NCBI RefSeq assembly: GCF_001544495.1
Contig: NZ_FCNZ02000005.1
Span: 1 to 64,000 of the forward strand
Length of the DNA stretch: 64,000 nt
Direction: 5' to 3'
Source: Caballeronia telluris
Lineage (GTDB): Bacteria > Pseudomonadota > Gammaproteobacteria > Burkholderiales > Burkholderiaceae
This document shows positions 2,318 to 12,472 of this stretch, one piece after another (positions within the stretch are counted from its first letter, which is position 1; the number at the start of each line of letters is the position of its first letter). The notes under the pieces are model-generated. The model saw only the letters and a list, made by a program, of their open reading frames with translations, had not been told where the DNA came from and did no database searches. Both the position numbers and the translations under genes were made by a program.

Positions 2318-3506
2318 TCACGTCCTCATCGCCTCGATCAATGACTGCGTGCCTAGAATGCTCATTGCTCGCTTCAGGTTGTAGGCCAATACGTGAAGGC
2401 TCATCTCGGGTCGCACACGCGGAAGCGTTTTCATCAGGAAGTGTGCGGAGCCCATTCAGAACTTGCGCGTTCCAAACGGGTGCTCGACTGTCTGTCTTCG
2501 CAATCTCGCGGTGTCTGGATTCTGATCGAGTCGACGCTGCATGTCCTCAAGTATCTTCTCGTGTTCCCACCGCGTTACCCTTCGATATGGACTCGGAGTG
2601 CAGTGCGGCTTTAGTTTGCAACTTGGACACGCTGAAGGCTAATACTTGTGAATCTTCAGTCCAGCCTCGATCGTCGTGACGCGCCAATTGGCCCGCTCTC
2701 CTGCTGGACAGCGATACTTATCATCCGACTCAATGTAGACGAAGTCCAGCTTGTCAAAGCGACCGTCTGCCTTGCTGTTCGATGTCAGCGGCTTGGGCAC
2801 CAAGGTCTTAATGCCCTCTTGCTCGCAGCGCAGAATTTCATCGCTCTTGTAGTAGCCGCGATCGGCAAGCGCCGTCAGTTTCTTTTGACCGATAGCATCT
2901 CGCACCATTGTCGCCATCGTGGCCAGTTGAGAACGATCGTGACCAACATTGACGACATCATGAGCAACGATCATGTGATTCTTGAGATCCACCGGTTTGC
3001 ACGTTGTAGCCGACCATTCCCGTGCCACGCCCGCTGGTTGCCATTGAGCGCGCGTGCGGGTCCGTCAGTGAGATCTGGCCATCGGGAGCGGCGCGCATCC
3101 GTGTCTCGATCTCACCGAGCTTTTGCACTTGCGCTTTGAGCTTCTCGATCTTCTCTTTCAGGTGAGGAATTCGTTCATCCGGCAGGCTCGCTGGCTCTCG
3201 ATCAGCCCGGTCCAGTTCATCCATGTAGCGCTTGATGCCATGCTCGAGTTGCTCCATGCGAGCCTGGAGTTTCGATGGATGATATGCCGGTCGACCAATC
3301 AAGGAGGGCGACGCTTGCGCGAAGCCAGGGCTCGCCAGGTCAAGCTCATCGACGAACACATCAGCCACCCGTACCGGGTTCTCTACATCTACGTAATCGT
3401 CGAGACACTCGGTAGCAACGCGACTTGATCTCGCGCCGCGCTTTCGATGAATCGCTTCATGGGCCACCATCTGAAAAGGTGTTGCCCAACTATAGGCGAT
3501 CAACAC
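2318..3506 (-). pseudogene. IS1182-family transposase, broken by deletion, frameshift and two stop codons
   Basis: Reading the minus strand from 3506, the N-terminal part shows a LDDYV..ENPVRV segment and a GRPAYHPSKL segment typical of IS1182 transposases. It then jumps straight to a charged helical segment (MEQLEHGIKRYMDELDRADR), so roughly 80-100 residues including the first catalytic region are missing. After a GYNVQT motif near 3000 the frame shifts and continues as NHMIVAHDVVNVGHDRSQL and LADRGYY. A TAG at 2639-2641 and a TGA at 2456-2458 both stand where tryptophan is plausible. The same frame then runs on through HPFGTRKF, ending LAYNLKRAMSILG at the TGA at 2318-2320. The translation past both stops keeps family character, so the decay is recent. 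Confidence 0.85.
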
Positions 3507-3979: not shown

Positions 3980-5278
3980 ATGCAAATCACCGGTATGTTG
4001 CACGGCGCGCGCCTGTTGCAATTCGTCGGATTCCCGGCGAGCGAAATCCTCGGCCCGAGCGCCAGCGAAGAGGAGATAAAGACCTTGATCGATCGTCATC
4101 GCCAGATTTTCATCAAGCCCGTCTTCAAGGGCGGCGTCGGAAAGAAGGGCAAAGCGGGCCTGCTCGGCCGCGCCACCGATCTCAAGACGGCACTGATCGA
4201 GAAAGAGCGGTTGTATTTTGCCGAGCACACGGTTGCACACCTGAGGGCGAAAGCGAACGGCGTGACGTTCGAAGCCGGCGTTCCGGCCAAGCATGAAGTC
4301 TATTTCTCGATAACGGATTCCACCCGCTTTCGTGCACCGACAATGACGCTCTCGCACATGGGCGGCATGGATATCGAGGAGGTCGATCCAAAGCATGTGG
4401 CGATGGTGCCTTTCGATGCGTTGACGGGCCTCAAGGCGTTCGTCGTGGCGAACGCGCTGAGCGAGATCGGCGCGCCGAAGGAGATCATTTCGCCGCTCGT
4501 GCAGCAGTTGCCGAAACTCTGGGAGCTCTTTCACGACTTCGGCATGACGACGCTGGAGCTCAACCCGATCCGGATGCGCGAGGACAAGAACGGGCGGCTG
4601 ACACCGGTCGCCTGCGACTTCAAGTGCGGCTTCGATCGCGACGATCCGCGCTGGACGCGTCTTGGACTGCCGCAACACCTGTTCGCGGCCGACTACTCCG
4701 ACTTCGAGCAGGAGATCAATCAGTTGCGCACGCATCAGGGCCAAAGCGATGTGTACGTGATCAACGACAAGGGAACGATCCTCGCGCCGACGTTCGGCGG
4801 CGGCGCCAACTCGCTCGTGACCGAAATGCTCGGCGACGCCGCGATCATCTCGTCGGATTTCGGGGGCAATCCACCCTACGCGAAGATGAAAGAAGTGGCC
4901 CGTATCTGCTTCAAACACTGGCTCAAGCAGTCGAACGTGCTTTTCATTATCGGCGGCAAGTCGAACAACACCGACATCTTCGAGACGCTGCGAGCGATGG
5001 CTGATGCCCTTCGCGAACACTTCAGCGAGCATGGACCGACGCCGCTCTACGTGGTGCTGGGCCGCGGCGGGCCGAACCTCGTGCGCGGCATGGCGGCGTT
5101 GAAAGACACCTGCGACTCGCTCGGCCTGCCCTACAGACTGTTCGGATTCGACTCCGACATCAGCGAAGTCATCCAGTACGCACGAAAGGCGGACGCGTGG
5201 ATGCGAGAGGGTGGCCGGGCCGAGATCGCAGCACGGATCGGCGCGACCGCGATGAAAGCCGAAACGGCTCAGGCTTGA
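3980..5278 (+). CDS. ATP-citrate-lyase-like small subunit (ATP-grasp, citrate-binding; succinyl-CoA synthetase beta-like)
   Basis: The 432-residue protein has the size and order of a two-subunit ATP-citrate lyase small subunit. The N-terminal ATP-grasp part runs to about residue 240 and includes KPVFKGGVGKKGKAGL and the metal/ATP segment TLELNPIRM. A C-terminal Rossmann-type citrate-binding domain follows, with a glycine-rich PTFGGGANSL and SSDFGGNPPY. In the family this subunit binds ATP and citrate and passes phosphate to the partner subunit to form citryl-CoA in the cytoplasm. An AGGAG lies about 12 bases before ATG 3980. The partner gene starts 10 bases after the stop, so the two are cotranscribed. 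The exact acid used (citrate or another tricarboxylate or citramalate-like acid) cannot be read from sequence. Confidence 0.8.
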   Translation: MQITGMLHGARLLQFVGFPASEILGPSASEEEIKTLIDRHRQIFIKPVFKGGVGKKGKAGLLGRATDLKTALIEKERLYFAEHTVAHLRAKANGVTFEAGVPAKHEVYFSITDSTRFRAPTMTLSHMGGMDIEEVDPKHVAMVPFDALTGLKAFVVANALSEIGAPKEIISPLVQQLPKLWELFHDFGMTTLELNPIRMREDKNGRLTPVACDFKCGFDRDDPRWTRLGLPQHLFAADYSDFEQEINQLRTHQGQSDVYVINDKGTILAPTFGGGANSLVTEMLGDAAIISSDFGGNPPYAKMKEVARICFKHWLKQSNVLFIIGGKSNNTDIFETLRAMADALREHFSEHGPTPLYVVLGRGGPNLVRGMAALKDTCDSLGLPYRLFGFDSDISEVIQYARKADAWMREGGRAEIAARIGATAMKAETAQA

Positions 5279-5288
5279 GGAGCACGAC

Positions 5289-7988
5289 ATGCATAAACAA
5301 CACAGCAACCCGTTCAAGTACTTCGTCGGCGTGAACTCGCTGGCGCAGATCGCCACGCGCGACGATCGCGTGTGCGTGCTCAACATCCTGGGCGGTGAGT
5401 CATCGGATGTAACGCCCGTCAGTCACGCCTTCTCGGGCGGTAACATCGTCTTCGGTACGGCACCGGGGAAAGGTGGCCAAACGCTCGCGACATCGGCCGG
5501 CGATATCCCGGTGTATAACAACGTCCGCGAAGGGCTGGAGGCAGGGCACCGCTTCAACTGCGGCGTGGTGTATCTGCCGCCATCGGCTGCCCGTGACGGC
5601 GTCGCCGAGCTTATTCGCGTCAATCCCGACCTCAAGAAGATTTTCATCATCACCGAGAAGATCGCCGTGCACGACGCTCGCGAAATTCGCGCAATGGGGC
5701 AGCAAGCCGGCATCGACATCTTCGGCGCGAATGGGTTGGGCGTCGCGGACTCCTGGAATCGCGTGAGGATCGGCGGAGCGCTCGGGGGCGACAATCCGGA
5801 CGATTCGCTGCGCAAGGGTTCGATCGCTATCTTCTCCAACTCCGGCGGCTTCAGCACGACAATCGCGCAGTACCTGCGCATGAGCGGCTGGGGCACGTCG
5901 ACCGTTATTTCGAGCGGCAAGGACGTCTACATCCACTACGCCGCGCCGGAATTTGCATTCGCGCTCGCCAACGATGCGCGCAGCAAGGCCGCTGTACTCT
6001 ATTGTGAACCGGGCGGCTATTACGAAGCCGATGCGACCTTTACGAAACCGGTGGTTGCCTGCGTCGTGGGCCGGTGGAAAAGCCGGCTGACGCGCGCGGT
6101 CGGGCATGCGGGCGCGATGGCTGGTGGTTCCGACGACGCGCAAGCGAAGGAACGCTGGTTCATGGAGAAGTTCGGCGTTGACCGGCTCTTCAGCCCCGAC
6201 GATCCATGCTGCTCGGCCAAAGGCGCGGTGGTCACGAACATCGCGCATATCCCGGCGGCGCTGACCGCCGTCATGCGCGCAAACGCGACGATGCCGGACT
6301 TCGAGCCCGAAGGCAGCCTCGCGCTGAAGCCGTGGTTCGGCTCCGATCAGGGTATCGAGCTTCCGTCAGGGCTTGCGATTCCCGTGGTCGGCGCGGTCGC
6401 TCCGTATGACGAGCAAGTCTTACGGGTCAATAGCCAGATCGGGGCGATTGCGCCGCGTCAGGCGCTCAAGGACGCATCGGGCGCGTCGCAAATGGATGCG
6501 AAAACGCAAGTCAGCAGCCTGCACGGAACCTCGATGCTGGACGCCGCGACCCGCTCACTCGAAGCGAACGTGAACCTTGCCCTTCTGCACGAACCCGGCG
6601 GCGAGAACGACGAGAAGCTGATCAACGTAGCGATCGCGGCATCGGTCAATCTGCATGGAACGCCGGAACTCGTCGCGGCCCAGGCGGCGCGCGAGGCAGG
6701 CAACGCCCCCAACGCGGTTCTGGCGGCTGCGGCATCGATTGTCGGGCCGAATCGTCAGCGCGCCGCGCGCGATGCCGCCAAATGGCTGATCGATCGCTTC
6801 GCGGCTGCGGGCCTCACGAACGCGCTCGATGAAAGCTTCGACATCGGCCAGATCGACACCGCCGGCTGCGAGCCGCTTTTCGCCGATGCTCGTGATCCGC
6901 GCGCCGAAGCGATGCTCGCGGGACTTGCGAAGCGTGGCGCCAAGTCCGTGCCGATCCGCTGGCTGGCGTCCCAGCCGGCGCACCCGACGGCGGACGCCGT
7001 GCTCGCCGCGATCACGACCACATTGGCGTGGGGTCCGCTCATGCGCAAGCGTGTGTCGCGCGTGACCGCCGAAAGTTTGCCCTGGTGGACCATGCTGTTC
7101 GGACGTTTGATCGGCGCTTCGGCGGATGCATCTCGTCACGCCCCGGAAGGATTCTGCGGCTTCACCACCGAATCGCTCCTGAACGAACGCAGCCTCACCG
7201 AGATTTGCTTTGCGGCACTGCTCGATCTCGAACCCGGCCCCGACGATCTGTTCGCCTTCAAAACGCTCGCCGGACTGCTGCTCACCAACGGACCGGGAGC
7301 CATCTCGGCCCAAGGCGCGAAAGGCGCCGTCTCGGCTGACGGTCCTGAAAGCCCCGAGCGCGTTCAGCTCAACAAGGCGCTCGTCGGCTTCCTTTCGCAT
7401 ACCGGCTTTACGCATGGCGGCAACGGGTACGAGGGAATCGCCTTCCTGATCGAAGCGTTCCGCGATACTTCGCTCGACGATCCGTCGGACGCTGAACACG
7501 GCGTCGATCTGCACTCGTTGGCCGCGCGGTCGGTTGAGCGTTACGCGCAATATAAGGCGCGGCAAAAAAGCGCGGGCAGCCTGGACATCGCGAAGCTGCC
7601 AGGGGTCAATCATCCGGTGTTCAAGGACAGGCCCGTCAACCACGATCCGCGCGAGGTGTTCATCGCAAACCTGTGCGAGCAACGCGGGGAATACAACGCG
7701 TTCCATGCGTTCTACCGCGAGCTCGTGCAGGCGCTGTTCGATGCCGGCGTGTCGCGCAACGTGTACTGCGTGAACGTCGATGCGGTGATCGCGGCGTTGC
7801 TGCTCAAGATGCTGTGGCAACCGTTGCGACGCGGCGATCTGGCTGAGTCCGATCTGGAAACCGCCGCGTTCACGATCTTCCTTTATCCCCGCATGCTCGG
7901 CTGTGCGGCGGAAATCGACGATCACCTGAATCGCGGACGCAACATGGACACGCGCACGCCGGCTTCCCAGTGCCGCTTCGTGGCTTGA
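5289..7988 (+). CDS. ATP-citrate-lyase-like large subunit (CoA-ligase plus citrate-synthase-like lyase), unusually long
   Basis: The N-terminal 330 residues form a CoA-binding/ligase module like succinyl-CoA synthetase alpha, with SNSGGFS and the phospho-histidine motif GHAGAMAGG near residue 275. The C-terminal 200 residues look like citrate synthase/citryl-CoA lyase: FTHGGNGYEG, GVNHPVFKDR and NVDAVIAALL. At 899 residues it is about 290 longer than the usual large subunit of roughly 610. The extra part lies between the two modules (about 400-650) and itself contains a citrate-synthase-like segment with NLHGTPE. Where the family has a catalytic DHGPAVSG, the distal module reads TNGPGAIS, so the histidine looks replaced by asparagine. 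A GAGGAG precedes the ATG. It is very likely catalytic with the small subunit, but the substrate is open. Confidence 0.75.
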   Translation: MHKQHSNPFKYFVGVNSLAQIATRDDRVCVLNILGGESSDVTPVSHAFSGGNIVFGTAPGKGGQTLATSAGDIPVYNNVREGLEAGHRFNCGVVYLPPSAARDGVAELIRVNPDLKKIFIITEKIAVHDAREIRAMGQQAGIDIFGANGLGVADSWNRVRIGGALGGDNPDDSLRKGSIAIFSNSGGFSTTIAQYLRMSGWGTSTVISSGKDVYIHYAAPEFAFALANDARSKAAVLYCEPGGYYEADATFTKPVVACVVGRWKSRLTRAVGHAGAMAGGSDDAQAKERWFMEKFGVDRLFSPDDPCCSAKGAVVTNIAHIPAALTAVMRANATMPDFEPEGSLALKPWFGSDQGIELPSGLAIPVVGAVAPYDEQVLRVNSQIGAIAPRQALKDASGASQMDAKTQVSSLHGTSMLDAATRSLEANVNLALLHEPGGENDEKLINVAIAASVNLHGTPELVAAQAAREAGNAPNAVLAAAASIVGPNRQRAARDAAKWLIDRFAAAGLTNALDESFDIGQIDTAGCEPLFADARDPRAEAMLAGLAKRGAKSVPIRWLASQPAHPTADAVLAAITTTLAWGPLMRKRVSRVTAESLPWWTMLFGRLIGASADASRHAPEGFCGFTTESLLNERSLTEICFAALLDLEPGPDDLFAFKTLAGLLLTNGPGAISAQGAKGAVSADGPESPERVQLNKALVGFLSHTGFTHGGNGYEGIAFLIEAFRDTSLDDPSDAEHGVDLHSLAARSVERYAQYKARQKSAGSLDIAKLPGVNHPVFKDRPVNHDPREVFIANLCEQRGEYNAFHAFYRELVQALFDAGVSRNVYCVNVDAVIAALLLKMLWQPLRRGDLAESDLETAAFTIFLYPRMLGCAAEIDDHLNRGRNMDTRTPASQCRFVA

Positions 7989-8127: not shown

Positions 8128-9426
8128 ATGCATCCCTCCTCAACCACCCTGGCCCCCGGGCAATCGAAGGCATCCGCTGTACTACGCGTGACGGCGGGTA
8201 ACTTCCTGGAGCAGTTCGACTTCTTTCTGTTTGGCTTCTATGCCACCCAGATTGCTGCGGTTTTCTTCCCGGCGGCGAGCGAGTTTGCTTCGCTGATGAT
8301 GACGTTCGCGGTGTTCGGCGCCGGCTTCCTGATGCGGCCGCTGGGCGCGATCATCCTCGGCGCGTATATCGATGACGTCGGCCGACGCAAGGGCCTGATC
8401 GTCACCTTGTCGATAATGGCGAGCGGCACCATCCTGATCGCGTTCGTCCCCGGTTACGCGTCGATCGGATTCTTTGCGCCGGCGCTGGTCCTGATCGGCC
8501 GTCTGCTGCAGGGCTTCTCGGCGGGTGCGGAACTGGGCGGCGTATCGGTCTATCTCGCCGAGATGGCGACGCCCGGACGCAAGGGGTTCTTCACGAGCTG
8601 GCAATCCGCCAGCCAGCAAGTGGCGATCGTGGTCGCGGCGGCGCTCGGTTTCGCCCTCAATCAATGGCTCGACACGGCGACGATCGCCGCGTGGGGATGG
8701 CGCGTGCCGTTCTTCGTCGGCTGCATGATCGTGCCGTTCATTTTCATCCTGCGGCGCAATCTCCAGGAAACGGAAGAATTTAAGCAGCGCCAGCATCGCC
8801 CGAGCATGAAAGAAGTCTTTACGACGCTCGTGCAGAACTGGACTGTCGTGATCGCCGGCGTCCTGCTTGTCGCGATGACCACCACGAGCTTCTACCTGAT
8901 CACGGTGTATGCGCCAACCTTCGGCAAGACGGTCCTGCATCTGAGCACCGCCGACAGCCTGCTCGTCACGCTGTGCGTGGGTATCTCCAACTTCATCTGG
9001 CTGCCGATCGGCGGCGCGTTGTCGGACCGGATCGGACGCCGCCCGCTCCTCCTCGGGATGACGATTCTGGCGATCGCGACCGCCTATCCCGCACTGTCGC
9101 TGCTTGCCCACGCGCCGAGCTTCGTCAATATGCTGCTCGTGCTGTTGTGGCTCTCGTTCATGTACGGCATGTACAACGGCGCGATGGTCGTCGCGCTCAC
9201 CGAAGTGATGCCGGTCGAAGTGCGAGTCGCCGGATTCTCGCTCGCCTACAGCCTCGCGACGGCGGTCTTCGGTGGATTCACGCCCGTCATCTCGACCGCG
9301 CTGATCCACATGACGGGCGACAAGGCCGCGCCCGGCTATTGGATGAGCTTCGCCGCGGTGTGCGGGCTCGGTGCGACGCTGGCGCTGTATCGGCGCCGTC
9401 CTGTGCCGCTGCACGCGGCGTCCTGA
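8128..9426 (+). CDS. MFS citrate/tricarballylate-type proton symporter (CitA/TcuC-like)
   Basis: The 432-residue protein begins with the family-typical [19 protein letters not shown] and has the inter-helix 2/3 signature [10 protein letters not shown], repeated in the second half as [10 protein letters not shown]. About twelve hydrophobic segments are visible, as in metabolite:H+ symporters of the inner membrane. GGAGA lies 9 bases before the ATG. Its place between lyase genes and a periplasmic binding protein, with its own copy of the shared operator, suggests it imports the acid cleaved by the lyase. CitA and TcuC are close relatives and cannot be separated by eye. Confidence 0.8.
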
Positions 9427-9446: not shown

Positions 9447-10229
9447 ATGAAATCCATCCTTCTGAAATGCTGCACCGCCGCGCTGCTCGGCAGCGCCGTC
9501 GCCGCGGCAAACGTACAGGCCGCCGATCTGCATGTGATGAGCTCCGGCGGTTTCACTTCGGCGTACAAGTTGCTCGGCCCTAAATTCGCGGCATCGACCG
9601 GCAACACGCTCGATACCGCGCTCGGCCCGTCGATGGGCAAGTCGCCCGAAGCCATTCCGAACCGTCTTCAACGCGGCGAGCCTGCCGATGTCGTGATCAT
9701 GGTCGGCTACGCGCTCGACGACCTGATCAAGCAGGGCAAGGTCATTCCCGATTCGCGCGTCGAACTCGCGGATTCGCGCATCGGCATGGTCGTGCGCGAC
9801 GGGGCGCCCAAGCCCGACATCGGGTCCGAGGCGGCGCTCAGGGACACCTTGCTGCATGCACGGTCGATCGCCTACTCGGATAGTGCGAGCGGCGTCTATA
9901 TCGAGCGCGAGTTGTTCAAGCGGCTCGGCATCGAAGAACAGGTGAAGAGCAAGGCGAAAATGGTCCCCAGGATCCCGGTGGCGTCCGTGGTTGCGACCGG
10001 CGACTATGAAGTGGGCTTTCAGCAGGTGAGCGAGTTGCTGCCGGTGAAGGGGGCGGCGTACGTCGGCAAGATTCCGGAGTCGATGCAGTCGGTCACGCGC
10101 TTTGCAGCGGGCATACCCGTCGGCGCGCAGCATCCGAAGGAGGCGAAAGCGCTGCTCGACTATCTCGCGTCGCCTGCCGTGCAGCCGGAGGTGACATCGA
10201 CGGGCCTCGATTCCGTCGCCACGCAGTGA
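9447..10229 (+). CDS. ModA-like extracellular substrate-binding protein
   Basis: The 260-residue protein has a clear Sec signal peptide ending near residue 27 (VQAADLHVMSSGG) and then the two-lobed fold of molybdate-type binding proteins: SSGGFTSAY near the start, ADVVIMVGYALDDLI, and a late GAQHPKEAKALLDYL. No ABC permease or ATPase gene is adjacent. The only transport partners nearby are the MFS carrier, which ends 20 bases upstream, and DctA. Many ModA-like proteins in catabolic operons are not molybdate binders. A role in binding or sensing the same carboxylate in the periplasm is possible but inferred. Confidence 0.7.
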   Translation: MKSILLKCCTAALLGSAVAAANVQAADLHVMSSGGFTSAYKLLGPKFAASTGNTLDTALGPSMGKSPEAIPNRLQRGEPADVVIMVGYALDDLIKQGKVIPDSRVELADSRIGMVVRDGAPKPDIGSEAALRDTLLHARSIAYSDSASGVYIERELFKRLGIEEQVKSKAKMVPRIPVASVVATGDYEVGFQQVSELLPVKGAAYVGKIPESMQSVTRFAAGIPVGAQHPKEAKALLDYLASPAVQPEVTSTGLDSVATQ

Positions 10230-10244
10230 GACGACCGCAGCGAT

Positions 10245-11546
10245 TCAGCCGGGCAGGTCCGCGGGCTGGTCGAAGGGTTCTTCCGGCTCGTGCGCAAGGC
10301 TCAACGCTTCTTTCAGGCGCGCCCGGTCACAGGCGCGCTCCCACATCGATACGAAGATTACCGCGCAGGTGTTGCTGATCACGCTCGTGAGGGCGCGCGC
10401 CTCGGACATGAAGCGATCGATGCCGACCAGCAGTGCGACGCCCGCCAGCGGCAGATCGGGGATGACAGCGAGCGTGGCGACGAGCGCAACCAGCCCGCTG
10501 CCCGATACGCCCGCCGCACCCTTCGACGTCAGCAGCATGACCGCCAGCATCGTCGCGATCTGGCCGCCGGAGAGGTGTACGTCGCACGCTTGAGCGATGA
10601 ACATCGAAGCGAGCGTCAGGTAGATCGCCGTGCCGTCGAGGTTGAACGAATAGCCGGCGGGCAGCACGAGACCGACGATGCCTTTGTCGCAGCCAAGCGC
10701 TTCCAGCTTGACGATGAGGCGCGGCAACACCGGTTCTGTCGACGAAGTCGCGAGCACGATGATGAGTTCCTCGCGAATGTAACGCAGCAGCCGCCACAAC
10801 GAGAAGCCGTGCAGGCGCGCGAGCGGACCGAGCACGCAGACGACGAACAGCAGGCACGCCGCATAGAACGAAACCATCAGCATGCCAAGCGAGCCAATCG
10901 AGCGGATGCCGAAGCGGCCTACCGTGAACGCCATCGCGCCGAATGCGCCGGCGGGCGCGAGCCGCATGATCAGCGCGAGGATGCGGAACAACACGTGCGC
11001 GATGCCATCGATGAATGCCTGTACCCGCTGCCCGGCGTTTCCACTGGCGTTCAATGCGAAGCCGAACAGCAGGGCGAGCAGCAGGACCGGCAGCACCTCA
11101 CCTTTCTCGAAGGCGCCGACGAGCGTCTCCGGAATCACATGCAGCGCGAATTCGACGAGCCCGTGCGGCTGCGTGCGCGGCGAATACTGCGCGAGAACGG
11201 CCGTGTCGAGAAGATGCGTGTCGATGTGCAGTCCCGCGCCGGGGTGCAGCGCGAATGCGGTCGCGAGGCCCAGGACGAGCGCAACGATGGTGAGAAAGTA
11301 GAACAACGCCAACGCTTTCAGGATGGTCCGGCCGATCTTCGAGCCGCTCGAAAGCGACGTGATACCGGTGACGATCGTGCAGAAAACGATCGGTGCGATC
11401 ATCATGCGCACCAGCGCGACGAACGCATCGCTGAGCGGTTTGAACGACGCACCGGCCTGTGGCCAGAAGTGGCCGATGGTCATCCCGAGCCCCATGCCGA
11501 GCAGGACCTGAACGTACAGCACATTGAAAGGCCTCGGCACGGTCAT
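10245..11546 (-). CDS. C4-dicarboxylate:cation symporter, DctA type (DAACS family)
   Basis: At 433 residues the protein has the DAACS hallmarks: a serine-rich reentrant loop ATSSTEPVLPRL, the transport motif GYSFNLDGTAIYL and a second loop LLTSKGAAGVSGSG, with about eight membrane helices. The family imports succinate, fumarate, malate or aspartate with cations across the inner membrane. The gene is downstream of, and overlaps by four bases (ATGA), the LysR gene, so both are cotranscribed. It converges on the binding-protein gene with only 15 bases between stops. It may bring in C4 acids related to the products of the lyase pathway. Confidence 0.85.
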   Translation of the reverse strand: MTVPRPFNVLYVQVLLGMGLGMTIGHFWPQAGASFKPLSDAFVALVRMMIAPIVFCTIVTGITSLSSGSKIGRTILKALALFYFLTIVALVLGLATAFALHPGAGLHIDTHLLDTAVLAQYSPRTQPHGLVEFALHVIPETLVGAFEKGEVLPVLLLALLFGFALNASGNAGQRVQAFIDGIAHVLFRILALIMRLAPAGAFGAMAFTVGRFGIRSIGSLGMLMVSFYAACLLFVVCVLGPLARLHGFSLWRLLRYIREELIIVLATSSTEPVLPRLIVKLEALGCDKGIVGLVLPAGYSFNLDGTAIYLTLASMFIAQACDVHLSGGQIATMLAVMLLTSKGAAGVSGSGLVALVATLAVIPDLPLAGVALLVGIDRFMSEARALTSVISNTCAVIFVSMWERACDRARLKEALSLAHEPEEPFDQPADLPG

Positions 11547-12472
11547 TTCGGGGTCTTCTTCACCGCACGCGTCATGCCGCCGCGTTTCATGTCGAGAATC
11601 GTCTGATAAAACTGCTGCGCGGCTGGCGCGAGCGGGCGTCCCCGGCGCCTGACGATGCCCACCCGCCTCGTTACGACCGGATCAACAAGTGGCACGCTCG
11701 TCAGGATCGGATGGTCATGCATCGGCATCGCCATCGAAGGCACAGCCGCTACACCCAGTCCCGCTTCGATCAGGCCAAGCATCGTGGTGACATGGCGAGT
11801 CTCGCAGACGCTCGGTACGGCCGGCGCCACGCTGGTCAACGCCTGATCCAGCAACAGGCGGTTGCCGGACGTCTTGTCGACGGAAACGTATTCGTGTTCA
11901 TAAAGCTCGCTCCAGGACACGCGTGTCTTCCGTGCCAGCGGATGATCGCGACGGCACGCGGCGACGAACCGTTCCTGCAGCAGGACCTTGAACTCGACCT
12001 CGGTTTCCTGGCTGCCCATAAAGCTGACGCCGAAATCGGCTGCACCGCTGATGACCGAGCCGAGCACTTCGTTGGCGCTCGAATCGAGCAGCTTGACCCG
12101 GATCCGGGGATAGCGGGTGTGATAGGCGGCCACGACACTCGGCAGAAAATAGTAGGCAACCGACGGCACGCACGCGATGGTCACATGACCGAGGCGGCTG
12201 CTGGATACGTCGCGGATGCCAAGCAATGCGACATCTAGATCGTCGAGCAGTTGTTCCGCGCTTGGAGCGAACACGCGGCCTATAGTGGTGAGCGTTACGC
12301 TGCGAGTGGTCCGCTCGAAGAGCCGCACGCCGAGCGCCGTCTCGAGCTTCTCGATGCGCCGGCTCAGCGCTGGCTGCGAAATATTGACCGCCTCCGCTGC
12401 TTTGCGGAAGCTACCCAACTCCACGACAGCTCGAAACGCCTGTAAATCGTTCAGGTCGAAGTTGACGCCCAC
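11543..12472 (-). CDS. LysR-family transcriptional regulator
   Basis: The 309-residue protein has an N-terminal winged helix (about residues 8-65: LQAFRAVVELGSFRKAAE, SQPALSRRIEKLE, LFERT) and a C-terminal inducer-binding domain. The start is a GTG with AGGA six bases ahead. It is transcribed together with dctA. It is the only regulator gene in the 3.6-12.5 kb locus and so the candidate for binding the two ATTGAT-N11-ATCAAT elements. I see no copy of that element directly upstream of this gene, so autoregulation is not evident. Confidence 0.9.
   Translation of the reverse strand: MGVNFDLNDLQAFRAVVELGSFRKAAEAVNISQPALSRRIEKLETALGVRLFERTTRSVTLTTIGRVFAPSAEQLLDDLDVALLGIRDVSSSRLGHVTIACVPSVAYYFLPSVVAAYHTRYPRIRVKLLDSSANEVLGSVISGAADFGVSFMGSQETEVEFKVLLQERFVAACRRDHPLARKTRVSWSELYEHEYVSVDKTSGNRLLLDQALTSVAPAVPSVCETRHVTTMLGLIEAGLGVAAVPSMAMPMHDHPILTSVPLVDPVVTRRVGIVRRRGRPLAPAAQQFYQTILDMKRGGMTRAVKKTPK

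Follow-up and report, generated by a model that had tools for sequence, protein, structure and literature searches.

We analysed a pair of adjacent genes in a 64,000-nucleotide stretch of DNA from Caballeronia telluris (contig NZ_FCNZ02000005.1, positions 1 to 64,000; hereafter the window) which encodes the two subunits of a putative ATP-citrate lyase (ACL). The large subunit contains two citryl-coenzyme A (CoA) lyase (CCL) modules in tandem, an inner degenerate one and a distal intact one. The pair and the parts of the large subunit are as follows:

3980..5278, forward strand: small subunit, 432 amino acids, with an ATP-grasp and a citrate-binding domain; its stop lies 10 bases upstream of the large-subunit start
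5289..7988, forward strand: large subunit, an open reading frame of 899 amino acids
5289..6308, forward strand: large-subunit residues 1-340, CoA-binding / succinyl-CoA-ligase-alpha part (Pfam, match to 6hxq_A)
6102..6116, forward strand: GHAGA phospho-histidine loop, with H273
6309..6473, forward strand: linker, residues 341-395, predicted at low confidence (pLDDT 42-51 in the blocks spanning 341-400)
6474..7163, forward strand: inner degenerate CCL module, residues 396-625 (profile, fold and conservation)
7164..7985, forward strand: distal intact CCL module, residues 626-899 (profile and conservation)

A preliminary description of this DNA had taken the 899-residue protein for an ACL-like large subunit, and this was confirmed, with a synthetase-type N-terminal part followed by CCL-type modules. 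In Pfam the N-terminal part of the large subunit matched CoA_binding (30.5 bits) and Succ_CoA_lig (38.9 bits), and the small subunit matched ATP-grasp_2 (54.2 bits) and Citrate_bind, the citrate-binding domain of ACL (55.3 bits, cut-off 26.8); the match of the large subunit to citrate synthase (PF00285, residues 708-876) was below threshold at 19.2 bits vs a cut-off of 27. Among solved chains, the best match of the large subunit was the small subunit of citryl-CoA synthetase (6hxq_A, E 8.6e-36) and that of the small subunit was the synthetase large subunit (6hxq_B, E 3.3e-32). For both, citryl-CoA synthetase was a closer match than type I ACL, with 126.6 vs 49.4 bits for the large subunit and 115.3 vs 77.6 bits and less for the small subunit.

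The extra internal citrate-synthase-like module proposed in the preliminary description was also found. In profile-profile comparison both modules matched a CCL profile (P 97.2 for the distal module), and the nearest solved relative of the inner module by predicted fold was a citryl-CoA lyase. The citrate synthase profile gave P 1.1 to 34.0 against the modules, with no significant match, and when solved structures were searched with a profile of the distal module there was no match up to E 1. The fold of a whole citrate synthase subunit was present in the predicted structure. Invariant columns made up 119 of 340 in residues 1-340, 18 of 230 in the inner module and 64 of 274 in the distal module. 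The inner module is under purifying selection, with a ratio of non-synonymous to synonymous substitution rates (dN/dS) of 0.06-0.36 in 13 of 13 pairs.

Relatives were sampled by scanning a single genome from each species, which gave 103 stretches encoding a relative, 80 of which were kept. In these 80 rows we compared four active-site positions in each module: DHG (H900 of human ACLY), HGG (the catalytic His of citrate synthase), GH and NVD. We take the H709 position to be that of H274 in pig citrate synthase and the H775 position to be that of H975 in ACLY. The residues in question are:

7287..7289, forward strand: N667, at the ACLY H900 (DHG) position; Asn in 80/80
7413..7415, forward strand: H709 in HGGNG, at the position of the citrate synthase catalytic His; His in 80/80
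7611..7613, forward strand: H775 in NHPVFK, at the ACLY H975 position; His in 80/80
7779..7781, forward strand: D831 in NVDA, at the ACLY D1026 position; Asp in 80/80
6654..6656, forward strand: H456 of the inner module, no more than two columns from the ACLY H900 position, three alignments disagreeing on its exact place

The replacement of the catalytic His by Asn, and the retention of the phospho-histidine and the later motifs, had been noted from this one protein and held throughout the family; H273 was invariant in 83 of 83 rows. All four distal residues pair with CCL residues in the profile alignment. In the inner module the H456 column had 62 His and 11 Tyr, the remaining 7 rows carrying Ser, Ala, Phe or some other residue; the HGG position was mostly Arg (R489; 57/80), the GH position was variable (P529 here) and the NVD position was Asp (D569) in 64/80, with His not among the five commonest residues at HGG or GH. 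Because of these counts, we regard the distal copy as having lost the ACLY-type His with its citrate-synthase-type triad intact, and the inner copy as supplying no conserved replacement. The DHG His was present in human ACLY, in the CCL 6hxp and in each of 19 other CCL-like proteins inspected from among 36 additional matches, and the HGG His in 6hxp and 18 of those 19; human ACLY has Phe at the latter position (RFGG). A separate CCL beside citryl-CoA synthetase genes in another member of the Pseudomonadota (L159:5653-6453) has Ala (DAG) in place of the DHG His and keeps HGG, a second natural loss of the DHG His.

The length of the large subunit is a property of the family. Of 89 large-subunit relatives with more than 900 bits among the loci gathered, including the window's own and six duplicates, 87 were 899-920 amino acids long, and the synthetase and lyase parts were fused in all 87. 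The two exceptions were 764 amino acids (L077, at a contig edge) and 851 amino acids (L040, with a divergent end). Homologues of ordinary ACL length, which the preliminary description had named as evidence against its reading, were not found among the 89. A chimera or assembly error as the source of the extra length is ruled out, since 87 of the 89 are equally long. The small-subunit gene adjoined the large-subunit gene in 78 of 80 loci; in the other two (L077 and L091) the contig starts at or inside the large-subunit gene.

The closest named relatives were from Caballeronia humi (98%) and C. glebae (97%), and the hosts, which belong to the Beta-, Alpha- and Gammaproteobacteria and the Magnetococcales, include Caballeronia, Paraburkholderia, Variovorax, Methylobacterium, Rhodoplanes, Denitromonas, Sedimenticola and Chromatiaceae. 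Presence was patchy: a full-length copy was found in 9 of 25 sampled genomes of the genus and in 2 of 300 from the order, both counts including the window's own genome. The large-subunit gene was carried over at least 80% of its length by 19 plasmid records. We regard the pair as part of a widespread family consistent with the enzymes that already bear the name type II ACL. PF16114, used to search for type I ACL, was present in 37 of 398 genomes of the phylum; of 20 viewed at length, 19 held type II and one a separate citryl-CoA synthetase and lyase, and no type I ACL was found among these 20 (the other 17, including the window's genome, fall outside this count).

Several individual copies are also worthy of note. 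Aminobacter plasmid pUSP3 (L212; 97 kb, typed conjugative) carries the pair near annotated CBASS-type phospholipase and nucleotidyltransferase genes. One related genome has a partial second large-subunit copy (G007:C295:6159-7190, residues 556-899, 87%) and another a short match to residues 1-46 (G005:C2:28440-28577), which suggest turnover of the large-subunit gene. In a metagenome-assembled genome, a 63% relative (L080:8001-10703) has one in-frame stop in the large-subunit gene.

The genes which follow the pair in the window are:

8128..9426, forward strand: TcuC-type tricarballylate/citrate:H+ symporter, the next gene (NCBIfam NF011656, 764.1 bits, cut-off 445); relative in 35/80 loci
9447..10229, forward strand: periplasmic substrate-binding-like protein, named from sequence reading and a relative's annotation; relative in 30/80 loci, three at only 52-54%
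10245..11546, reverse strand: DctA-type dicarboxylate transporter (NF002461, 545.6 bits, cut-off 513); relative in 25/80 loci, one at only 36%
11543..12472, reverse strand: LysR-type regulator (Pfam HTH_1 and LysR_substrate); relative in 26/80 loci, three at only 29-30%

Upstream of the pair, two overlapping open reading frames in different frames (2639-3506, reverse strand) resemble pieces of an insertion-sequence transposase, as far as the sequence can be read.

Among 99 loci whose neighbours were clustered, with one member per family named, TcuA and TcuB genes occurred in three (L025, L042 and L047); the neighbours in 19 loci from the PF16114 genomes were clustered and carry no family-search names. 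In Gemmobacter the pair is followed by a thioesterase, TcuB, TcuA and then, two genes on, a tripartite tricarboxylate permease; in Microvirga, TctB with a tripartite tricarboxylate permease, a thioesterase and a two-component system lie upstream of the pair. These small acyl-CoA thioesterase genes lie at 9702-10088 in Gemmobacter (L214), overlapping the end of the large-subunit gene, and at 2911-3288 in Microvirga (L213). A TctD-like regulator was found in Denitromonas (L069; 278.8 bits, under the model cut-off of 337), and in locus L083 aconitase and monomeric isocitrate dehydrogenase lie directly downstream of the pair. The window's genome had only two matches to PF01855 (2-oxoacid:ferredoxin oxidoreductase), both partial and both scoring little more than the cut-off of 27 (31.2 and 30.5 bits). 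It also had five further PF00285 matches, read as citrate synthase, two methylcitrate synthases and two other relatives, and the window enzyme is therefore not the host's citrate synthase. The two putative methylcitrate synthases, on contigs C16 and C67 of this genome (G000), have an identical score of 408.7 bits; the contamination estimate of the genome is 4.37%. In this soil bacterium the role of the pair is probably tricarboxylate uptake and breakdown, not CO2 fixation. Two loci weigh against this: pUSP3 has no tricarboxylate genes annotated in 18.7 kb (its gene table being incomplete), and in Polymorphobacter only a two-component system adjoins the pair, a 2-hydroxycarboxylate transporter lying some 7 kb away.

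From the modules, the predicted folds, the conservation and the gene context we infer the reaction, the residues acting in it, the scaffold role and the dimer assembly, and we consider it likely that the pair is a type II ACL with a dead inner scaffold module and a catalytic distal module. The small subunit and residues 1-340 of the large subunit would form the citryl-CoA synthetase half, in which ATP would phosphorylate H273, the phosphate would move to citrate and CoA would then yield citryl-CoA. The first lyase module, its catalytic residues lost, would act as an in-chain partner and a scaffold. Cleavage of citryl-CoA to acetyl-CoA and oxaloacetate would fall to the second, via H709, H775 and D831, the set used by citrate synthase, with N667 standing in for the ACLY-type His. 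The complex would assemble around a large-subunit dimer, giving two copies of each subunit against four in type I. The enzyme is a real, conserved ACL variant which is enzymatically plausible, its proposed mechanism drawing on conservation and predicted folds.

We also suggest, tentatively and at somewhat under an even chance, that type II ACL parallels the origin of citrate synthase. A CCL gene would have been duplicated head to tail, the first copy dying to become a permanent dimer partner and the second keeping the citrate-synthase-type triad while losing the ACL-type His. The result would be a citrate-synthase-like dimer core of two large and two small subunits, with the lyase module doing the cleavage, in contrast to the allosteric model for human ACLY.

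Whether the lyase module of ACL cleaves citryl-CoA or only signals is disputed, and the allosteric model is argued for human ACLY in the excerpts of PMC10115795 available to us. Applied here, cleavage would be the work of the synthetase half, the two CCL modules binding CoA and relaying conformational changes. In favour of this, the CoA contact of the model, H900, is Asn throughout the window's family. However, the citrate-synthase-type set is complete in the distal copy in 80/80 rows and incomplete in the inner one, which is the pattern expected of a catalytic and a non-catalytic copy, and we consider the allosteric explanation unlikely. It is less likely still that the substrate is another hydroxy-tricarboxylate such as 2-methylcitrate or homocitrate, as could be suspected from Asn at a normally conserved active-site position and from the thioesterase gene beside the pair in Gemmobacter and nearby in Microvirga. 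Against this stand the citrate-binding domain of the small subunit, citryl-CoA synthetase as nearest relative, the TcuC, TcuAB and tripartite tricarboxylate neighbours in many loci and the aconitase and isocitrate dehydrogenase of L083; the earlier suggestion of an acyl-CoA other than citryl-CoA is so far unsupported.

The preliminary description had further proposed an active site rebuilt from both modules, for which the candidate is H456, in place of the missing distal His. Its location and its His in most rows agree with this, but its column varies while N667, H709, H775 and D831 are invariant, and the inner module has the far smaller share of invariant columns. We consider a composite site very improbable, and its form through H456 is rejected on conservation. 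Finally, the few invariant columns and lost catalytic residues of the inner module might suggest a functionless segment in decay; its dN/dS and the want of any ordinary-length relative among the 89, from four host groups, make this the least probable explanation. If the preferred reading of a dead inner and a catalytic distal module holds, this natural form, with the H900 His replaced and the citrate synthase His kept, makes both models of cleavage testable by ordinary mutants, and this little-studied ACL form is a useful test case for enzyme mechanism and for the origin of citrate synthase.

The name type II ATP citrate lyase was proposed by Huegler and Sievert (2011) and, in the excerpts of PMC6315080, PMC3522073, PMC6783814 and PMC5459899 available to us, is used for tubeworm symbionts and magnetotactic cocci, the hosts given being Riftia/tubeworm symbionts, Magnetococcus MC-1 and Thioflavicoccus. 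Published type II large-subunit primers encode, in the text available, VAKEEWF and NGFEAIA; at these sites the window protein has QAKERWF (285-291) and NGYEGIA (712-718), identical at 5/7 and 5/7 and in the same order. When the forward primer was turned into a degenerate DNA pattern, none of 210 loci matched it. The pair is also present, at 56 and 65%, in Magnetococcales WMHbin3 (L095), whose family has been reported to possess type II ACL. The window pair is like type II ACL in its two genes, its primer peptides in order and its Magnetococcales and Chromatiaceae relatives at 55-56%; it differs in its soil or root heterotroph setting beside tricarboxylate uptake genes. The presence of the gene pair alone should not be taken as CO2 fixation by the reverse tricarboxylic acid cycle. 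In all five annotated plasmid records opened, the large subunit was labelled 'CoA-binding protein' or 'hypothetical protein', so the ability of soil and root bacteria to cleave citrate can be overlooked.

Enzymes of this kind have already been named in autotrophs. As far as our searches go, two lyase modules in tandem, one dead and one live, have not been described in them: neither the doubled lyase nor the Asn was mentioned in the literature searched, including the available parts of PMC3136470, PMC9560492, PMC9802188 and PMC10892978, a search which did not cover Huegler and Sievert (2011) or Verschueren et al. (2019), where a prior description is possible.

Type I ACL (human ACLY, Chlorobium AclAB) shares the synthetase-then-lyase order, the phospho-histidine and the H975 and D1026 counterparts (H273, H775 and D831, all invariant here). 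It has one lyase module, human ACLY with the DHG His and RFGG, whereas the window enzyme has two, with Asn for the DHG His and His in HGG. The citryl-CoA synthetase and lyase system provides the nearest solved relatives of both subunits and, by fold, of the inner module, in keeping with the placement of Planctomycetes citrate-cleaving genes between that system and type II in the available text of PMC5459899; its lyase is a separate protein, 6hxp keeping both His, whereas here the lyase is fused and doubled. Citrate synthase has no significant sequence match to the window enzyme, which is fused to a synthetase half; the window enzyme may be a second example of tandem citryl-CoA lyase modules, an architecture which citrate synthase appears to share.
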